64,000 nucleotides of DNA, taken from the NCBI RefSeq assembly GCF_016595495.1, contig NZ_JAENIM010000039.1:540659-604658 (forward strand). The letters are read 5' to 3'. Of this stretch, positions 5,496 through 12,891 are shown in pieces (position 1 is the first letter of the stretch; every line of letters begins with the position of its first letter). The notes below the pieces were generated by a model. It had not been told where the DNA came from and ran no database searches. It saw nothing but the letters and a program-made list of their open reading frames with translations. Origin of the DNA: Persicirhabdus sediminis. GTDB lineage: Bacteria > Verrucomicrobiota > Verrucomicrobiia > Verrucomicrobiales > Akkermansiaceae. The position numbers and the translations under genes were made by a program.

Positions 5496-6971
5496 TTAGC
5501 TTTCGCGGCCACTTTGCCATTTGGCAAATTCAGCCGGACGTAGTTTGTAGCGCACGATGCTGCCAACGTGCAGGGCCGCCAGCTCAGCAGCCACAATCTG
5601 GCCAAATGACTTTTCTTCGTGGCTTGGCGCTAGCTGGCTCGCGCGCTCGGCGATGAGCGCTTTTGCTTGCTCACCGTGCGCACCCAGCTGGACCAGCTCA
5701 CGCACGCAGTTTTTTATCTGCTCGCGGTATTTCAGCTGGAATGGATCTGGATTTCCCAGCGTCAGCCGGATGGCATTGTAGCGGGTGCATGACCGCTTGT
5801 ACGCCCAGATAAACAAATCGCGCAGGTAGTCGACGCGGTTCAGCTCGTACACCGCCAGCACAGCATTGAGGTACTCGCGGGTATCCACATCCACAAATGA
5901 GAGCGGGCACAGGTTGTGCTGCACCATCGGGATGTTGGCTGCCAGCCGTGATGTGCGTTTATTGACGTCTGCAAATGGCTGCAGGTAAGGCAGCTGCACG
6001 AGCACAAAAAATGCCGCTTCGAAAGGGTCGTCAATGGCTGCCGCCTTTTCCAATACCAGCTGGAAGTTTTCTTCGATCTGCTGCGGGATTTCCAGCGGAC
6101 GAAAGACGGATTGGCCAATGCCCACCGCGACTCTGCGTAGCCTGCCACCAGCGCCAATCTCACCGAGCAAGTTCTCCGCCAGTAGCGCGTGCAGGTTGCA
6201 CAGGCTGTAGCGGTTAAATCCCAGCTCGTCACTTGGATCAGCCAGCATTTCTATCGCCGCTTTGTGGTTGAGCAGCATCTGGGTTTCAGCGGTGGATTTG
6301 CCTCCGTGGCTCAGCCCATGCTGCATCAGCCGCTCGGTCTCCAGCAGCGAGTAGGTATTGCCTTCTAGCCGGCTGGAGTTCCACGAAATCTCGATGATCA
6401 TGCGGTCGAGCAGCTTGCGCAGGTAGGTGCCAGGTGGCAGGTCGTTTAAGCCCACGCGACCAAGCTCAGCCAGCTCTGCGCGAGTCGCCTCGTCGAGATA
6501 GTAACTTTGGTTGGGCTGGTAGTCGTGGAGAAATTCCGCCCGATAGCCGACGGCTTTGCGCTCAGCGAGCGGGCGCGCAATCAGTTTTTTGCATTCCAGC
6601 CCACCGTCACTCAGCCAGCTGTCGTCAGCTGCAGCTGAGTAGGGCGCATGGCTTTCTTCAAGGCGGCTGGCTCTGTAGCTGCTAGCTGAAGGATTTCCGT
6701 AGCTGGCGCCATCTTCACTGAGCATGTTGCCATAGTAATGTTCTTTTTCTGGCGCAAATACCGGGGTGATGTAGCGAATGTTGCGGCTGTGGCCACGTGC
6801 CACAATCTCCCCACGCGCCACCAATGACTCAAGCCGACGCTGCAAGGTGCGCCGACTGTAATCCAGCTGGTCAATATCAAGCAATTCGCTGATGGAGCGA
6901 CCATTGGGCATCGCTGCATGAATGGTATCACGCAGCAATTCTAGCTCTTCATTTTTGATAATAGCAGGCAT
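5496..6971 (-). CDS. Fic-domain protein with winged-helix N-terminus and variant Fic motif
   Basis: Fic domains usually transfer AMP or another nucleotide moiety to a target protein. Residues 1-70 look like a winged helix (SISELLDIDQ, SRRTLQRRLESLVARGEI). Residues 199-205, SSRLEGN, match the inhibitory-helix motif [ST]xxxE[GN] placed N-terminal to the Fic core. The catalytic loop at 331-342 reads QPFADVNKRTSR: the usual catalytic His is Gln and GNGR is replaced by VNKR. AMP transfer is therefore doubtful; it may be a regulator or use another chemistry. The 491-residue start is supported by GAGGAA shortly before the ATG. Two direct repeats upstream could be its operator. It lies next to a restriction operon but is in CCAGCTGG-rich, host-like sequence. 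Confidence 0.85.
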   Translation of the reverse strand: MPAIIKNEELELLRDTIHAAMPNGRSISELLDIDQLDYSRRTLQRRLESLVARGEIVARGHSRNIRYITPVFAPEKEHYYGNMLSEDGASYGNPSASSYRASRLEESHAPYSAAADDSWLSDGGLECKKLIARPLAERKAVGYRAEFLHDYQPNQSYYLDEATRAELAELGRVGLNDLPPGTYLRKLLDRMIIEISWNSSRLEGNTYSLLETERLMQHGLSHGGKSTAETQMLLNHKAAIEMLADPSDELGFNRYSLCNLHALLAENLLGEIGAGGRLRRVAVGIGQSVFRPLEIPQQIEENFQLVLEKAAAIDDPFEAAFFVLVQLPYLQPFADVNKRTSRLAANIPMVQHNLCPLSFVDVDTREYLNAVLAVYELNRVDYLRDLFIWAYKRSCTRYNAIRLTLGNPDPFQLKYREQIKNCVRELVQLGAHGEQAKALIAERASQLAPSHEEKSFGQIVAAELAALHVGSIVRYKLRPAEFAKWQSGRES

Positions 6972-7130: not shown

Positions 7131-9506
7131 CTAGCTAGAGGCTTCCAGTATATCAGCCCATGAGCAGGTGACTGCCATGTATTTTGAGCCAGAGCGGTAT
7201 TTTTGGTGTACTGCAGAAAGATCTTGTTTGGCAAACTTACTAACATGATCAAATTCAAAAACCAAATAATGCGCAGTGGAGCTTGGTTGAAGTTGAGATA
7301 AGAGCCCTTTATGCTGGAGATACAATTCGAGCTTTTGCTTTGCCATAAAGCGGGCGGAGGTAACTTTAGCTCGCCAGCCCAAGCTGCTTATTGGCTCTCC
7401 TTGACGGCCACCGCACGGAATAAACTCAGAACCTATTTCAGTGCTTAGATTAAGGTCTAATGCATGACTCTCTGTTTGATTGCGTGGTACAGCGTGACAA
7501 TAAGCAAAACCATTTTCTCGGAATATGTCGGAGTTTGATTTTTTCAGCCAAAGCAATACACATGGGGCATTTTTTCGCGCCACATCGTAGCTCACAGACT
7601 CCTCTTCAAGAATCGTGGGTTTGTTTTCGATGATGGCGTGATTCGCGTCACGAATGTAGCTGTGCTGAGTGAACTGACTCCTTTGGCTATTCAAAACGTC
7701 GATCAGAAATGATTTAAGTGAGTTGGCGCACTCAGGGTTTCCGGGCTTCATAATATGCGCACCGACACTGGGTGCGATCTCGTGAAACTTCTTGAACTCG
7801 CTTCTATGCTCGGACCCTGTTCCTGGATAGAGAACATAGGAGCCGATGGTCTTACGCAGCGCATCGTTATAGGTGTGCATCTTCAGCAGGTCCACTCGCT
7901 TGTAGCTGGAAACTTTATTCTTCAATTTCTCCTGAGTGATTGCGTCATCTGTTGACTCGTGATCCTCACCAAAGAGGGCCTGCAGGTTTTGAATGCGGTA
8001 TTTCGCGTCAAAATGCAAATGAGCTACTTTGCCTTCATGCGCGGCCGCGGCCTCCGTTTTATAGCGATCGGGGAAAAGTGAGAGCGTATAGTCAGGCCTG
8101 AATTGCCTTGAGTACGATTGCCCCGAGGTGGCTGATTCACTGTGTGAGAATGTTTTCTCGTAGTGCAGGTCAATTCTCACTCCATCTAATTCGGCATCTG
8201 GCTGGTACAAGAAAGATGACTGAGAGTTCTTTCCCTGTTTGAGCTGTATCGAGATCGCTCCAGCGTCGTGTTTGATAAACCTATCACTATCGTCGATTGG
8301 ATTAGACGTGATGTGAGTGATCCCATCGATACTGGCGAGAATTTTATGAATTTCTAAAAATAGCCAATATTCATAAAGTGTTGCCACGTCACGTGTTTCA
8401 CCTTGGAAACAGTCTTGTTGGCCCTGCCAATCAAGACTGCATGCGGACTCAACCAAAATCCAGCCACGTAAAAATTCGCGATAGCCCTCGCGCTTTTGCA
8501 GTGTCTGATTGTTCAGGGGGAGGTGCTTTAGCTGAGGTAAGTTTTTGTAGAATGGGTGAGCTAGGGTGCTGTCGATCGATACTTGGAGCTCTTCAGCTTG
8601 CTTCCTAATTGTGCTGCCGATGCTCTTTAGATTGAGAACGTCAGTAGTGATTTTGCGAAAATGTAGCAGGGCAAATTTCACGAACTGGTTGGGAGGCGTA
8701 TTGTGTGATTCCTCTCTCCTGATATTGAGCCCTTGTGTAGGCATGCTCGTACCATTGATGTTTCTCCAGTCACGTAGCATTGCGTTTGGATTGCTTAGAT
8801 GGTGGCTAGATTTCACCATGCTCATAGGCTTCCATTCTCGTTCGCTTACCAGAGCGCTATGTGGGTTTCGCTGAATCAACTCACTCAACCATTGGAGTCT
8901 TTCAGGTGATAGGAAGTGACGCAGGAAGATGAAGCTTTCTAAGAGAACCTTGCGCTGCTCGCTTGGAGTTGATGAGAATTTTAGAGAAGTTGGGGCAGTT
9001 GCTGACAAGAGTAACTGCTCACAAAACGCAGCGATATCTTCCGTCATTTGCCGATATTCAGTATGAAAATCAATTTTAGGAGAAATGAACTCCAGCTGAA
9101 GAGACAAACTCGCTAGCCCGCCTTCATTCATTAGCTGGAATTTTGTATAACCTAGGTGGTTGACGATACAGAACGCGCCACGCTCAACTATTTTATTATA
9201 TCGCTCGACTGACCATCTTTGACGCCGACTGCTTTCTAGCGAACTGTTAACATTGATTATCTCGTTGTTGCCGTCGATCGCCCAGCAATAACCCAGCGTC
9301 TCCTTGAGACGCAGTGCGTGCTCTATGTTTTCTCCAATGACTTCGATAGCGCCATTGTCGGCTAGCCAGCCGCGGCATCCTCTTTGCAGTTCGATAAACC
9401 CTTCCTCGCTGGCAGAACGATCAAAGTCAGCAGCTTGTATGCCGAGTAGAAAATAGCCTCCGCCTTTCAGGGGGATTGCAATTTTTGAATATTGCTGAGA
9501 GAGCAT
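7131..9506 (-). CDS. McrC-like restriction nuclease subunit (DUF2357 plus PD-(D/E)xK)
   Basis: Predicted nuclease partner of the GTPase encoded just upstream. Residues of roughly 60-300 resemble the DUF2357 region of LlaJI/BsuMI-type restriction subunits. The nuclease core follows: LYEYWLFLEI (about 377-386), RPDYTL (470-475) and HFDAKYR (498-504), giving the PD...DxK catalytic set with Asp471-472, Asp500 and Lys502. Residues about 640-791 form an extra C-terminal part (WRAKVTSARFMAKQKLELYL, then HYLVFEFDHV) that I do not recognise. It is the last gene of the four-gene operon, 12 bases after the GTPase gene. Base composition is more AT-rich than the flanks and the CCAGCTGG octamer is absent, consistent with transfer. 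Confidence 0.82.
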   Translation of the reverse strand: MLSQQYSKIAIPLKGGGYFLLGIQAADFDRSASEEGFIELQRGCRGWLADNGAIEVIGENIEHALRLKETLGYCWAIDGNNEIINVNSSLESSRRQRWSVERYNKIVERGAFCIVNHLGYTKFQLMNEGGLASLSLQLEFISPKIDFHTEYRQMTEDIAAFCEQLLLSATAPTSLKFSSTPSEQRKVLLESFIFLRHFLSPERLQWLSELIQRNPHSALVSEREWKPMSMVKSSHHLSNPNAMLRDWRNINGTSMPTQGLNIRREESHNTPPNQFVKFALLHFRKITTDVLNLKSIGSTIRKQAEELQVSIDSTLAHPFYKNLPQLKHLPLNNQTLQKREGYREFLRGWILVESACSLDWQGQQDCFQGETRDVATLYEYWLFLEIHKILASIDGITHITSNPIDDSDRFIKHDAGAISIQLKQGKNSQSSFLYQPDAELDGVRIDLHYEKTFSHSESATSGQSYSRQFRPDYTLSLFPDRYKTEAAAAHEGKVAHLHFDAKYRIQNLQALFGEDHESTDDAITQEKLKNKVSSYKRVDLLKMHTYNDALRKTIGSYVLYPGTGSEHRSEFKKFHEIAPSVGAHIMKPGNPECANSLKSFLIDVLNSQRSQFTQHSYIRDANHAIIENKPTILEEESVSYDVARKNAPCVLLWLKKSNSDIFRENGFAYCHAVPRNQTESHALDLNLSTEIGSEFIPCGGRQGEPISSLGWRAKVTSARFMAKQKLELYLQHKGLLSQLQPSSTAHYLVFEFDHVSKFAKQDLSAVHQKYRSGSKYMAVTCSWADILEASS

Positions 9507-9518
9507 GGTGGCTAATCA

Positions 9519-11270
9519 CTAATGAATAAAGCTCACAAACTGTTCTTCTTGCAGCGTCTCAGCCATCGACTTGAGTTTAGCAAATGACCTTTTAAATTTG
9601 GCTGAATTGGCATCAAGCTTAGCAGCCTCCATCAGTGAGTCATTCAGCTGATCTGGATCCTTTGGTGTGTGGCAAAAGTGAGCCAAGCGAGCGATGAGTT
9701 TGCCGACGCGGCCAATGCTACCGTGAAGCTTTGGTAAGATTTTTTGCACGATCTGCTGGTCGAAGCTGTCTTCCCATCCTTCTGCTACCCACTTAGCCTC
9801 ATCCTCATCATCGAGCTGAAATTGAGAAACTCGCATGTAGCGGGTGATTTCGTTGGCTGTGCGATAAGCAAACTCAAACCGTCCTTGCTGCATGATGGTA
9901 AATAGTTGAAGAAGGTGATCATTTAACTTTTCAGCAATATTGGCATCTAGTTGAGGAAGGTCATTTGCACGTGCTTGTTTAGCTAGGGATAAAAAAGCTT
10001 CAGCCTGACCTTCAGCAGCTCTTTCCACTTCTGGGTATTCATGGGGCTCCTTGAGGAAATTTTCCAAATCGTCCTTCGCTACTTTGAATTCAATCACATT
10101 AGCTCGATCAAGAACCTTTGGGCTGAACATGTAGGTTGTCTCGTCGATATTGACGGTGCCAATGACAAAAAGGTTTTCTGGATACGGCAGTTTCTTTGGA
10201 ATCTTCTGTTCTCCAGTAGCTGAATTTGTCAGCTCTGCGCCCTCGTCATGTAGATGAAATTGACCGTCTTTTTGCTCCATAACGGAGAGAAAATCGGCAA
10301 AGTAGCGCTCTACGTGTGAAAGATTCATCTCATCCAAGATTAAAAAATAGGGAAATGTAGGATCAGCATTCGCTCGAATAAGAAGGTTTAGGATCTCCGT
10401 CGATTGATAGACTGGCTGATTTTGTTCATCCTTCTGCAGGTGATTTACAAAACCCAAAGTATTTCGATTATCTGTCCAGTCAGCGCCTACTGCAACAATA
10501 GCGTGGTTGTCTGAGTTTTGATTAGAATAGTGCTTGCAGAGGCTTTCAGCCTGTTTGGTTTTACCTGTGCCGGATGAGCCGGTCAAGATAGTGAAAGGTT
10601 TGGCCAGAAGAGCAGAATCAAGAGGATGGGTGGATAAATTCGCGGCATTACTTATTGAGCAATATTGCTCGATTATATCTTTTGTAAGTATAGGGTTGGC
10701 CTTAAGTGTTGACGTGATTTTATTTGGGTAAGCATCGGCAGCAAGAGTTCCGATATATGTTGCTAGGGCCGGCCCCCATTGATCTCCCTGCTTTCGGTCA
10801 ATTTGCTTAAAAGGGCCTACACTATCTTCCTTCCTGCGTTCCTTTTTTGAGGATAGCATTTTGTCAATTATGCCAAGATCTTCCTTGGAGCGGGATGATG
10901 CCTCTAGCTTACTCATAATCAGAGCTATTTCATCTTTAGTAAGCTCGCTTCCTGTATCAGCGCCAATTTTTGATGTTAAATTGAGTTCATCAGTGTGGGC
11001 TTTAATTATTTGAGAGAGCCTCTCATATTCATTATATAGGCTGACGGCCTTAGCGCATTTAAGCAGAAGCTCGTCCGTTAAGGCATATGTTGGTGCTTTT
11101 CCTGTATTTGCAATTCGTATTTGTTTATCAACAATAATCGCATTTCCTGCTTCTAGCCACAGCTGAACGAATTGTTCTTTCAAGGCTATTGGAACCTTAG
11201 TAAATCCAATTTTCGAATCTAGATGAGAACTGAATTTCGTGAGTTCTTGAATTATCTGTAGCAGGTTCAT
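9519..11270 (-). CDS. McrB-like AAA+ GTPase, restriction subunit
   Basis: Motor subunit of a modification-dependent or modification-blocked restriction enzyme of the McrBC/LlaJI class; by analogy it hydrolyses GTP, translocates DNA and activates the nuclease. Residues 1-200 are a variable region that should contain DNA-binding or specificity functions. The AAA+ core has Walker A GSSGTGKT (231-238), Walker B YFLILDEMN (about 318-326) and GTVNIDE (371-377), corresponding to the NxxD signature used for GTP selectivity in McrB. Sensor-region residues LDRANVIEF follow. It starts 5 bases after the methyltransferase stop codon and is followed after 12 bases by the nuclease gene, so the three are almost certainly co-translated. 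GTP rather than ATP use is inferred, not shown. Confidence 0.88.
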   Translation of the reverse strand: MNLLQIIQELTKFSSHLDSKIGFTKVPIALKEQFVQLWLEAGNAIIVDKQIRIANTGKAPTYALTDELLLKCAKAVSLYNEYERLSQIIKAHTDELNLTSKIGADTGSELTKDEIALIMSKLEASSRSKEDLGIIDKMLSSKKERRKEDSVGPFKQIDRKQGDQWGPALATYIGTLAADAYPNKITSTLKANPILTKDIIEQYCSISNAANLSTHPLDSALLAKPFTILTGSSGTGKTKQAESLCKHYSNQNSDNHAIVAVGADWTDNRNTLGFVNHLQKDEQNQPVYQSTEILNLLIRANADPTFPYFLILDEMNLSHVERYFADFLSVMEQKDGQFHLHDEGAELTNSATGEQKIPKKLPYPENLFVIGTVNIDETTYMFSPKVLDRANVIEFKVAKDDLENFLKEPHEYPEVERAAEGQAEAFLSLAKQARANDLPQLDANIAEKLNDHLLQLFTIMQQGRFEFAYRTANEITRYMRVSQFQLDDEDEAKWVAEGWEDSFDQQIVQKILPKLHGSIGRVGKLIARLAHFCHTPKDPDQLNDSLMEAAKLDANSAKFKRSFAKLKSMAETLQEEQFVSFIH

Positions 11271-11275
11271 TGTTG

Positions 11276-12598
11276 TTATTGTCTACTTTTCCGTATCTTT
11301 GTTTGTTTGGTTCTTAGAGACTTTATAATCTCTTCGCCAATTGCAGTAATTACAGGAACTGCGACAGAGTTCCCAAATTGCTGGTAGCCATGTCTCTTCG
11401 ATGCGTGAGGGACAAACTCTTCTGGATACCCCTGTAATCTAGCACACTCTCTGTGAGATAGGATCCTAGGGTTCTTTCCTTTTTGGGCAATTAAAATTTC
11501 ACTGCCGTCCTTCCAGTACCTAGCTGAAATAGTGTTAGCGTACTCATCCTCCTCTGTGAAAAGTGAATAACCAAAGCCATTGCCCTTTGTCTTATGTTCT
11601 CTTAGCCGACGCTGATGGCCTTCCCATAATTTATCTGAAATGGTGTATTGCTCATCTTGATCAGGCTCTAAGATATCACCGAGATTGTTGTAGAGTTGGT
11701 ATTTTCTTGGCTCAGGGAAGTTGAAGCTCCGTGGTTCGGAGAAGGCAACAATGAAGATACGTTCTCTGTTTTGAGGTACACCATAATCATGAGCCTTCAG
11801 AACCTTGGAGTAAACTGTGTAACCAATTTCTTCGAGTGCGTTACAGATTACTTGAAAAGTTCTGCCTTTGTCGTGTCCCCGTAGGCGCTTAACATTCTCT
11901 AGGAATAGTACCTTTGGTCGCTGAGTCTTAGCTATCGTCAGAATGTCGTAAAATAAGGTACCTCGAGCATCATCAAACCCTAACTGCCTGCCAGCTTGTG
12001 AGAATGGCTGACATGGAAATCCGCCACATAAAATATCGTGGTTTGGAATTTTTTCTGGAGCGGCGCTGTCGTTCGGGTTCGTGTGTGTAAAGTTAGTTAT
12101 ATCCCCGAATGGAATCTCGCCATAGTTTGAGTAGTATGTTTCTTTGGCATGTTTATCCCATTCAGAAGAGAATACACATTTTCCTCCAAGCGATTCTAGG
12201 GCTAGCCGGAAACCTCCAATGCCTGCAAATAGGTCAATGAAGTTGAATTTGGGTTTTTTGTTAACTGGAGGAAGAGGGAAGCCTGAGTAGTCGATTAAAA
12301 CTTTCTTATCTGCTGTCTTGGTTGATTTTGGGAATAAGCCTACTTTCTCAATGCGTCCGAGAGAGCTTAATATTTTGGTCCATTTGTCTTTATATGACGA
12401 ATCTAATAAGATTGGATCAGCCTTTGGGTCTTGGAGCCAATGGGAAATAATAGCAGGAAGTTCATCCCGTATTATTTCGGAGTGATCATTTGAGTACTCG
12501 ACAGCTAAGATTGTTTTTAGAGCTTTTTCAGGAGAGCATACATACGCTGCTGTACTTTTTGCTGGGGGCTTGGCTGTATAATCGATATTGCCCGACAT
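11276..12598 (-). CDS. DNA (cytosine-5) methyltransferase
   Basis: Transfers a methyl group from S-adenosylmethionine to C5 of cytosine in a specific DNA sequence, protecting host DNA from the linked restriction subunits. All core motifs are visible: I FIDLFAGIGGF, IV GGFPCQPFSQAG with the catalytic Cys, VI LFLENVKRL, VIII PQNRERIFIV, IX RECARLQGYPEEF and X QFGNSVAVPV. The target-recognition region lies between VIII and IX and includes NGFGYSLF and TISARYWKDGSEILI; I cannot assign the DNA site from it. An N-terminal extension of about 120 residues precedes motif I. The start codon overlaps the controller stop codon in TAATG. Only one methyltransferase is present, which suggests a symmetric target. 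Confidence 0.95.
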   Translation of the reverse strand: MSGNIDYTAKPPAKSTAAYVCSPEKALKTILAVEYSNDHSEIIRDELPAIISHWLQDPKADPILLDSSYKDKWTKILSSLGRIEKVGLFPKSTKTADKKVLIDYSGFPLPPVNKKPKFNFIDLFAGIGGFRLALESLGGKCVFSSEWDKHAKETYYSNYGEIPFGDITNFTHTNPNDSAAPEKIPNHDILCGGFPCQPFSQAGRQLGFDDARGTLFYDILTIAKTQRPKVLFLENVKRLRGHDKGRTFQVICNALEEIGYTVYSKVLKAHDYGVPQNRERIFIVAFSEPRSFNFPEPRKYQLYNNLGDILEPDQDEQYTISDKLWEGHQRRLREHKTKGNGFGYSLFTEEDEYANTISARYWKDGSEILIAQKGKNPRILSHRECARLQGYPEEFVPHASKRHGYQQFGNSVAVPVITAIGEEIIKSLRTKQTKIRKSRQ

Positions 12599-12828
12599 TA
12601 TTTCACGCCCTCCAAGAGTTCAGATACAGTGACTTCCAGAGGCTTGGCAATGCGTAGCAAGCTCATGATTGTAGGGTTTCTTTCGCCCCTCTCCAGTCCG
12701 CCGACGTATGCGCGATCAAGGTCTGCTTGAAGAGCAAGCTCTTCTTGAGATAGTCCAATTTCTTTACGGAAATTTCTTAAATTCTCACCAAATGTGATGA
12801 GCGCTGAGTGCTTATTATCCACCCGCAC
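12598..12828 (-). CDS. Controller-type HTH (Xre) regulator of the R-M operon
   Basis: A 76-residue helix-turn-helix protein with the size and pattern of restriction-modification controller (C) proteins: FGENLRNFRKEIGLSQEELA, then DRAYVGGLERGERNPT with the recognition helix. C proteins bind tandem operators, first activating and later repressing, and so delay restriction after the genes enter a new cell. The start taken is the GTG at 12828. No Shine-Dalgarno site precedes it, and the operator lies only 18 bases upstream, so a leaderless transcript, known for several C genes, is plausible. The stop codon overlaps the methyltransferase start by one base. Here the controller leads the whole C-M-R-R operon. 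Confidence 0.88.
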   Translation of the reverse strand: MRVDNKHSALITFGENLRNFRKEIGLSQEELALQADLDRAYVGGLERGERNPTIMSLLRIAKPLEVTVSELLEGVK

Positions 12829-12846
12829 AGTTAAGCTTAAATGATG

Positions 12847-12870
12847 ACTTAAATTCCACTGACTATAAGT
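12847..12870 (-). promoter_or_regulatory. Controller-protein operator (C-box) of the R-M operon
   Basis: Read on the minus strand, the 24-bp site starts ACTTATAGTC, continues AGTGG and ends AATTTAAGT. This closely follows the known C-box layout of an ACTTATAGTC half, a GTGG centre and a degenerate second half. It sits 18 bases before the GTG of the controller gene. The imperfect second half would be the lower-affinity operator. The match is by eye to the published pattern. Confidence 0.72.
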
Positions 12871-12891
12871 ATCATTTGGAGCGCTGTTTAA

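Follow-up and report, generated by a model that had tools for sequence, protein, structure and literature searches.

The minus strand of the window (the whole stretch of 64,000 nucleotides from Persicirhabdus sediminis that was analysed) contains four intact ORFs at positions 7131-12870, arranged in the order C, M, B and N. The C gene (12598..12828) has a GTG start and encodes a C protein of 76 aa with an HTH_3 domain, and M (11276..12598), which starts with an ATG within the motif TAATG, encodes a C5-cytosine DNA methyltransferase of 440 aa. These are followed by B (9519..11270), which encodes an McrB-like AAA+ NTPase of 583 aa with the NxD signature, and by N (7131..9506), which encodes an McrC-like nuclease of 791 aa that combines DUF2357 with a PD-(D/E)xK domain. 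The C and M genes share one base in the TAATG, and the gaps between M and B and between B and N are 5 and 12 bases, respectively, exactly as the first-pass annotation had described for all four ORFs, which are arranged with translational coupling. The gene identities assigned there also hold, with matches far above chance for C (PADLOC, C.AhdI), M (PF00145), B (McrB 6hz4) and N (DUF2357, PDDEXK_7), and the catalytic residues are conserved. The GC content is 42-47% in the operon versus 52-56% in the flanks, and this relative AT-richness suggests that the operon was probably acquired. A search for long DNA relatives of the operon in plasmids gave methyltransferase fragments as the only matches.

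The C protein fits the controller family in its size (the class of 70-100 aa), its HTH and its kinship to C.AhdI, C.Esp1396I and C.BclI. It matches the PADLOC model Control_protein (E 4.6e-19), and among solved structures C.AhdI is the best match (E 4.9e-15), followed by C.Esp1396I and C.BclI. Published C operators span about 35 bp and consist of two quasi-palindromes of the type GACTtatAGTC, with a conserved GT between them and TG...CA at the flanks (PMC3115060; also PMC3758141). A predicted operator of 35 bp, ATGATACTTATAGTCAGTGGAATTTAAGTCATCAT, which has two GACTtatAGTC-type boxes, the central GT and the outer TG...CA, is located at 12841..12875 (-) and ends 12 bases ahead of the GTG of C. 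It agrees with the consensus at 24 of 28 positions, as compared to 18 for the runner-up place in the window and at most 19 in any of 80 randomised 64-kb strands. The exact core 16-mer of the C-box lies at 12870-12855, its first base being the end point that had earlier been given to the operon, and it has a single exact match in the 4.17-Mb genome. No obvious Shine-Dalgarno sequence was seen upstream of C. A consensus scan placed a putative sigma-70-like promoter, TAAACA-17-TATAGT, at 12862..12890 (-); two such matches were found in the 500-bp region, where 0.6 are expected by chance. The second hexamer falls within the left C-box, and given this ambiguous position C may activate, repress or do both.

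The 76-aa protein could instead be a generic XRE repressor that does not function as a C protein, as it also matches Pfam HTH_3 (E 2.3e-14) and generic antitoxin and repressor models, and as other Cro-like (XRE-like) proteins head the related operons L044, L046 and L069. We consider this quite unlikely, since C proteins are the best-scoring families and structures, the canonical two-box operator is found in the expected place, and the heads of L069 and L044 gave no match to the Control_protein models. As a C protein, it has both the protein family and the two-box operator in common with the AhdI, Esp1396I and BclI systems.

M matches PF00145 (E 4.6e-103), and its residues 96-428 show 53% identity to the SsoII/Kpn2kI methyltransferase. 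The target-recognition region (residues 300-375; 11474..11701 (-)) is 71% identical to M.SpyI, which we also take to read CCNGG, and 58% identical to M.SsoII/Kpn2kI. M.Kpn2kI is identical to M.SsoII (PMC3695355), the specificity of which is CCNGG (PMC6100179). The recognition domain of M is closest in sequence to these CCNGG enzymes, and a CCNGG site is predicted. CCNGG is under-represented in the window, and GGNCC is equally low, which makes the scarcity uninformative as a sign of restriction-site avoidance. A second methyltransferase gene, the presence of which the first-pass annotation had named as evidence against its reading, was looked for and none was found in the operon. The genome contains one match to PF00145 and zero to PF01555, the two families covered by this search.

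Pfam gave only weak AAA matches to B. The modelled core of the protein best matches E. coli McrB (6hz4, Z 16.6; 6ut6, Z 16.4), over about 168 residues and with an rmsd of 2.9-3.0. Walker A, Walker B, the NxD signature (Asn-Ile-Asp, N374-x-D376; 10143..10151 (-)) and the Glu that follows it (E377) are invariant across 24 relatives. The NxD clade of McrB GTPases was defined in PMC11090510, which describes methyltransferase-associated McrB GTPases as common and gives no characterised GTPase in the NxD branch as of 2024. B presumably uses GTP.

The N-terminal domain of B (about residues 1-212; 10635..11270 (-)) is variable, has no Pfam match and is mostly helical in a low-confidence model (pLDDT about 25-50); we propose that it is the reader of the DNA site. 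No match to B3, the specificity domain of the R1.LlaJI type, was seen in B, the N-terminal domain of which is poorly modelled, and, with no Pfam match either, the model of this domain is too poor to tell whether it has the long coiled coil and the cold-shock/RNA-binding domains found on McrB in CoCoNuT systems. B does have the NxD McrB GTPase feature of the CoCoNuT systems. Significant similarity in the N-terminal domain is found only between systems with similar methyltransferases: all pairs at E below 0.01 are among the better-matched methyltransferase pairs, and the two similarities are correlated (Spearman 0.34, p 1.5e-4, the pairs not being independent). This co-variation is what would be expected if the domain recognised the site protected by M. 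Among 285 genomes of the class, relatives of the domain were identified only in the genome itself and in G264, and none was confirmed in viral contigs.

N matches DUF2357 (PF09823, E 8.5e-35) and PDDEXK_7 (PF04411, E 4.8e-25), and the catalytic residues D472, D500 and K502 are invariant in 8 of 8 relatives. A sequence search gave no match among solved structures, and two additional domains were recognised in a model of moderate confidence (mean pLDDT 64). The first is an Ig-like beta-sandwich at the N-terminus (about residues 14-143; 9078..9467 (-)) with matches to filamin and other Ig folds, the best of which is 2eec (Z 6.2 over 85 residues, rmsd 3.1). This agrees with the Ig domain reported for the McrC homologues of NxD systems in PMC11090510, so that the operon has three features in common with the NxD-type systems described there: NxD followed by Glu, the association with a methyltransferase and the Ig-like domain on the McrC homologue. 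The source defers the methyltransferase-associated NxD group to later work, and its accessible part contains no mention of a C protein. The second domain is located at the C-terminus of N (about residues 644-791; 7134..7577 (-)), and its best 24 chains are all ASCH, EVE (including VcaM4I-EVE), YTH, THYN1 or the N-domain of S. marinus McrB, with Z 6.5-8.2 over 112-139 residues and an rmsd of 3.4-4.4. The top two matches in Foldseek are likewise ASCH and the S. marinus McrB N-domain. On its own, a Z of about 8 would not settle the assignment, but the uniform superfamily and the end-to-end coverage suggest that N ends in an EVE/ASCH/YTH-like fold. The domain contains a conserved Trp, in the segment LGWRAKV. 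A related C-terminal domain is detected with a profile in 30 of the 88 N proteins, about 22 of which are convincing.

In other McrBC systems, modified bases are read by domains of the EVE/YTH type (PMC7680126, PMC11090510). With such a fold on N, the B-N pair could be a Type IV McrBC nuclease, dependent on methylation, to which the C-M pair is no more than a neighbour, with the EVE-like domain reading the modified DNA of invaders and M protecting or regulating some other target. This is very improbable, since M, B and N lie close together in a single operon and are found as a set in many genomes, since the N-terminal domain of B goes with the methyltransferase type, and since a nuclease that cut the product of M would kill the host. 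PcaRCI, which has the same layout, restricts unmethylated DNA (PMC8989522), and Type IV McrBC systems lack a cognate methyltransferase, whereas here one is present in the operon. Decay or silencing of the operon, to which the GTG start and the lack of an obvious Shine-Dalgarno sequence before C might point, is just as improbable, given the four intact ORFs, the conserved catalytic residues and the well-preserved operator. The evidence points, with a probability of roughly 0.8, to a complete McrBC-type restriction-modification operon that was probably horizontally acquired, and it supports the first-pass reading of a controller-led operon with one C5 methyltransferase and an McrB/McrC-like nuclease, with a C operator upstream.

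All components of the McrBC-type restriction-modification systems of the PcaRCI/LlaJI kind, namely the McrB-like AAA+ protein, DUF2357 with an intact PD-(D/E)xK domain and a methyltransferase in the operon, are present here; PcaRCI, LlaJI and LlaI were compared with the operon by their descriptions rather than by protein alignment. Like BsuMI, LlaJI (Lactococcus pNP40) has McrBC-like restriction subunits in a restriction-modification operon and protects against unmethylated DNA. The two differ from the operon in that they have two C5 methyltransferases, in place of the single enzyme and the C protein found here, and LlaJI regulates itself through M1 methylation at its own promoter. In the LlaI operon (Lactococcus pTR2030) a small controller gene, llaIC (C.LlaI), comes first, which would be a precedent for a controller-led McrBC-type operon. 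Unlike the operon described here, its methyltransferase is an adenine enzyme of the FokI-like two-domain type, and there are three restriction genes. The restriction subunits of LlaI and its relatives are relatives of McrBC (PMC2614495, PMC3874153).

One of the closest described systems has the same core of a single methyltransferase with McrBC-like subunits. According to the accessible text of PMC8989522, PcaRCI from Pectobacterium carotovorum RC5297 contains a single Dcm-like methyltransferase, which methylates CCNGG, and an McrBC-like nuclease, is AT-rich and probably mobile, and has been demonstrated to restrict both phages and plasmids. The same text proposes that a delay arises through gene order and slow assembly and mentions no controller, whereas a C protein and a C operator are present here. 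The authors leave the C-terminal extension of PcaRCI without a function in this text, and the EVE/ASCH-like fold on N is a candidate for its identity. With this fold at hand, point mutations could also show whether McrBC-type restriction-modification enzymes sense methylation.

N-like proteins occur widely. The scan of genome contigs confirmed 569 stretches, from which 80 loci were kept, and together with the genomes of the phylum it gave a census set of 90 loci. The host falls among the Verrucomicrobiota, with Prosthecobacter, Roseibacillus and other Verrucomicrobiales as named relatives. B and N are both present at 78 of the 90 loci. A methyltransferase was recognisable directly upstream at 22 loci, one gene at 16 and two at 6; these counts are motif-based and therefore undercounts, and L055 and L064 are apparent near-duplicates. 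A single methyltransferase is thus the common state among the related loci.

A C protein was found at just two of the roughly 90 related loci, L067 and L114, and both of these proteins match the control-protein models. In L067, from Taibaiella lutea, the C-M-B-N genes are in line with the same one-base overlap between C and M, and the C gene is preceded by the palindrome GACTTATAG...CTATAAGTC. The C-box-like site ahead of this gene (L067:4410-4475) is part of an extended and almost perfect inverted repeat, AAAATGGCAAACGTGACTTATAG...CTATAAGTCACGTTTGCCATTTT. In L114 (3999-11011), from another Verrucomicrobiota genome, C-M is divergent from B-N across an intergenic region of roughly 690 bp, an arrangement in which two promoters would be open to control by C. 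A search for further C-led loci around Taibaiella (L067) and L114/G283 found no C protein ahead of B in the six loci with upstream DNA, one of which has a generic HTH downstream. The claim that the combination is incompletely described stands for the C protein, which is unusual, but not for the core of one methyltransferase and an McrBC-like motor-nuclease, which is known from PcaRCI (PMC8989522). The new features are confined to the regulator chosen here and to certain details of the domains. McrB-McrC pairs also occur in plasmid pND2a of Kurthia gibsonii (L137:202-5521), with divergent methyltransferase genes and a divergent HTH gene, and in pSpe of Thiospirochaeta (L138:1846-8314), with divergent methyltransferase genes.

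The closest complete sister operons are L020 (Prosthecobacter) and L111. Their methyltransferases are 67-68% identical to M, with 71% identity in the recognition region, and both operons carry a recognisable homologue of the N-terminal domain of B. The methyltransferase in L111 (L111:4118-5752) has 544 aa and two copies of an N-terminal domain of about 100 aa, of which the enzyme in the window has one. The slot of the C gene is occupied in both sisters by an unrelated small protein of 67-70 aa, which is also found in L084 from Sideroxydans. This family of 67-71 aa (SGRIVIDVEPEFKxELYxALAL...; L020:4658-4870, L111:3903-4106, L084:4529-4744) heads sister McrBC-type restriction-modification operons, and an operator-like sequence, GTAACGTCACATACGTCACGTTAC, is identical in L020 and L111 immediately upstream of the head gene. 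The family has no match in Pfam, NCBIfam or PADLOC, and among solved structures only short segments of designed proteins were matched. By eye it resembles a ribbon-helix-helix protein, which no library confirmed, the one match being that of a single member to ParD (E 0.2). We regard it as a candidate for a new family of restriction-modification controllers. The different head proteins and operators in the sister operons suggest that the regulator is an exchangeable module, and the lack of a C protein in the closest sister systems that it is not essential to the type.

In the proposed mechanism, M would methylate a CCNGG-like site in the host DNA, and B would form an NTP-driven ring, with a variable N-terminal domain that recognises this site in its unmethylated state. 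N would dock on the ring of B, and its PD-(D/E)xK centre would cut after translocation, as in McrBC, while the EVE/ASCH/YTH-like domain may help to sense base modification. C would bind the 35-bp operator that precedes its gene and exert autogenous feedback over the whole C-M-B-N transcript, thereby setting how strongly the cassette is expressed.

The C-driven unit of standard C systems consists of C and R, with the methyltransferase expressed outside it (PMC3850674), whereas here M is placed behind C inside the C-led unit and R is an McrBC-like pair. The usual scheme, in which M acts at once and R awaits C (PMC3850674), is thus inapplicable unless M has an internal promoter. Because M sits behind C, C alone cannot delay R relative to M, which makes it doubtful that the controller times methylation and nuclease as was first suggested. 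On a transcript shared with M, the delay must otherwise come from gene order and slow assembly, and a newly entered host would have to be protected by gene order, basal expression of M and the slow assembly of the B/N complex.

A broader reading is that the C protein was recruited to a transcript shared by M and the motor-nuclease and sets the dose of the whole self-poisoning cassette rather than delaying the nuclease. It further holds that the nuclease subunit, rather than the McrB-like one, has an EVE-type reader with which it looks for the methyl mark prior to cleavage, and that the regulator slot is freely exchanged among otherwise equivalent systems, being filled by a C protein, by the unclassified family of 70 aa, which has a separate operator, or by Cro-like proteins. 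Taken as a whole we consider this reading tentative and somewhat unlikely. Apart from this reading, the operon itself indicates that classical control by C proteins is not confined to restriction-modification systems with simple endonucleases. The sister operons, with the same methyltransferase and specificity domain but a different regulator and operator, represent a natural experiment on how such cassettes spare a new host despite having M and R on one transcript.

A Fic/DOC-family protein of 491 aa, which contains the motif QPFADVNKRTSR and lacks the usual catalytic His of HPFxDGNGR, is encoded at 5496-6971 (-) of the window, on the same strand as the operon and 159 bases downstream of the nuclease gene.
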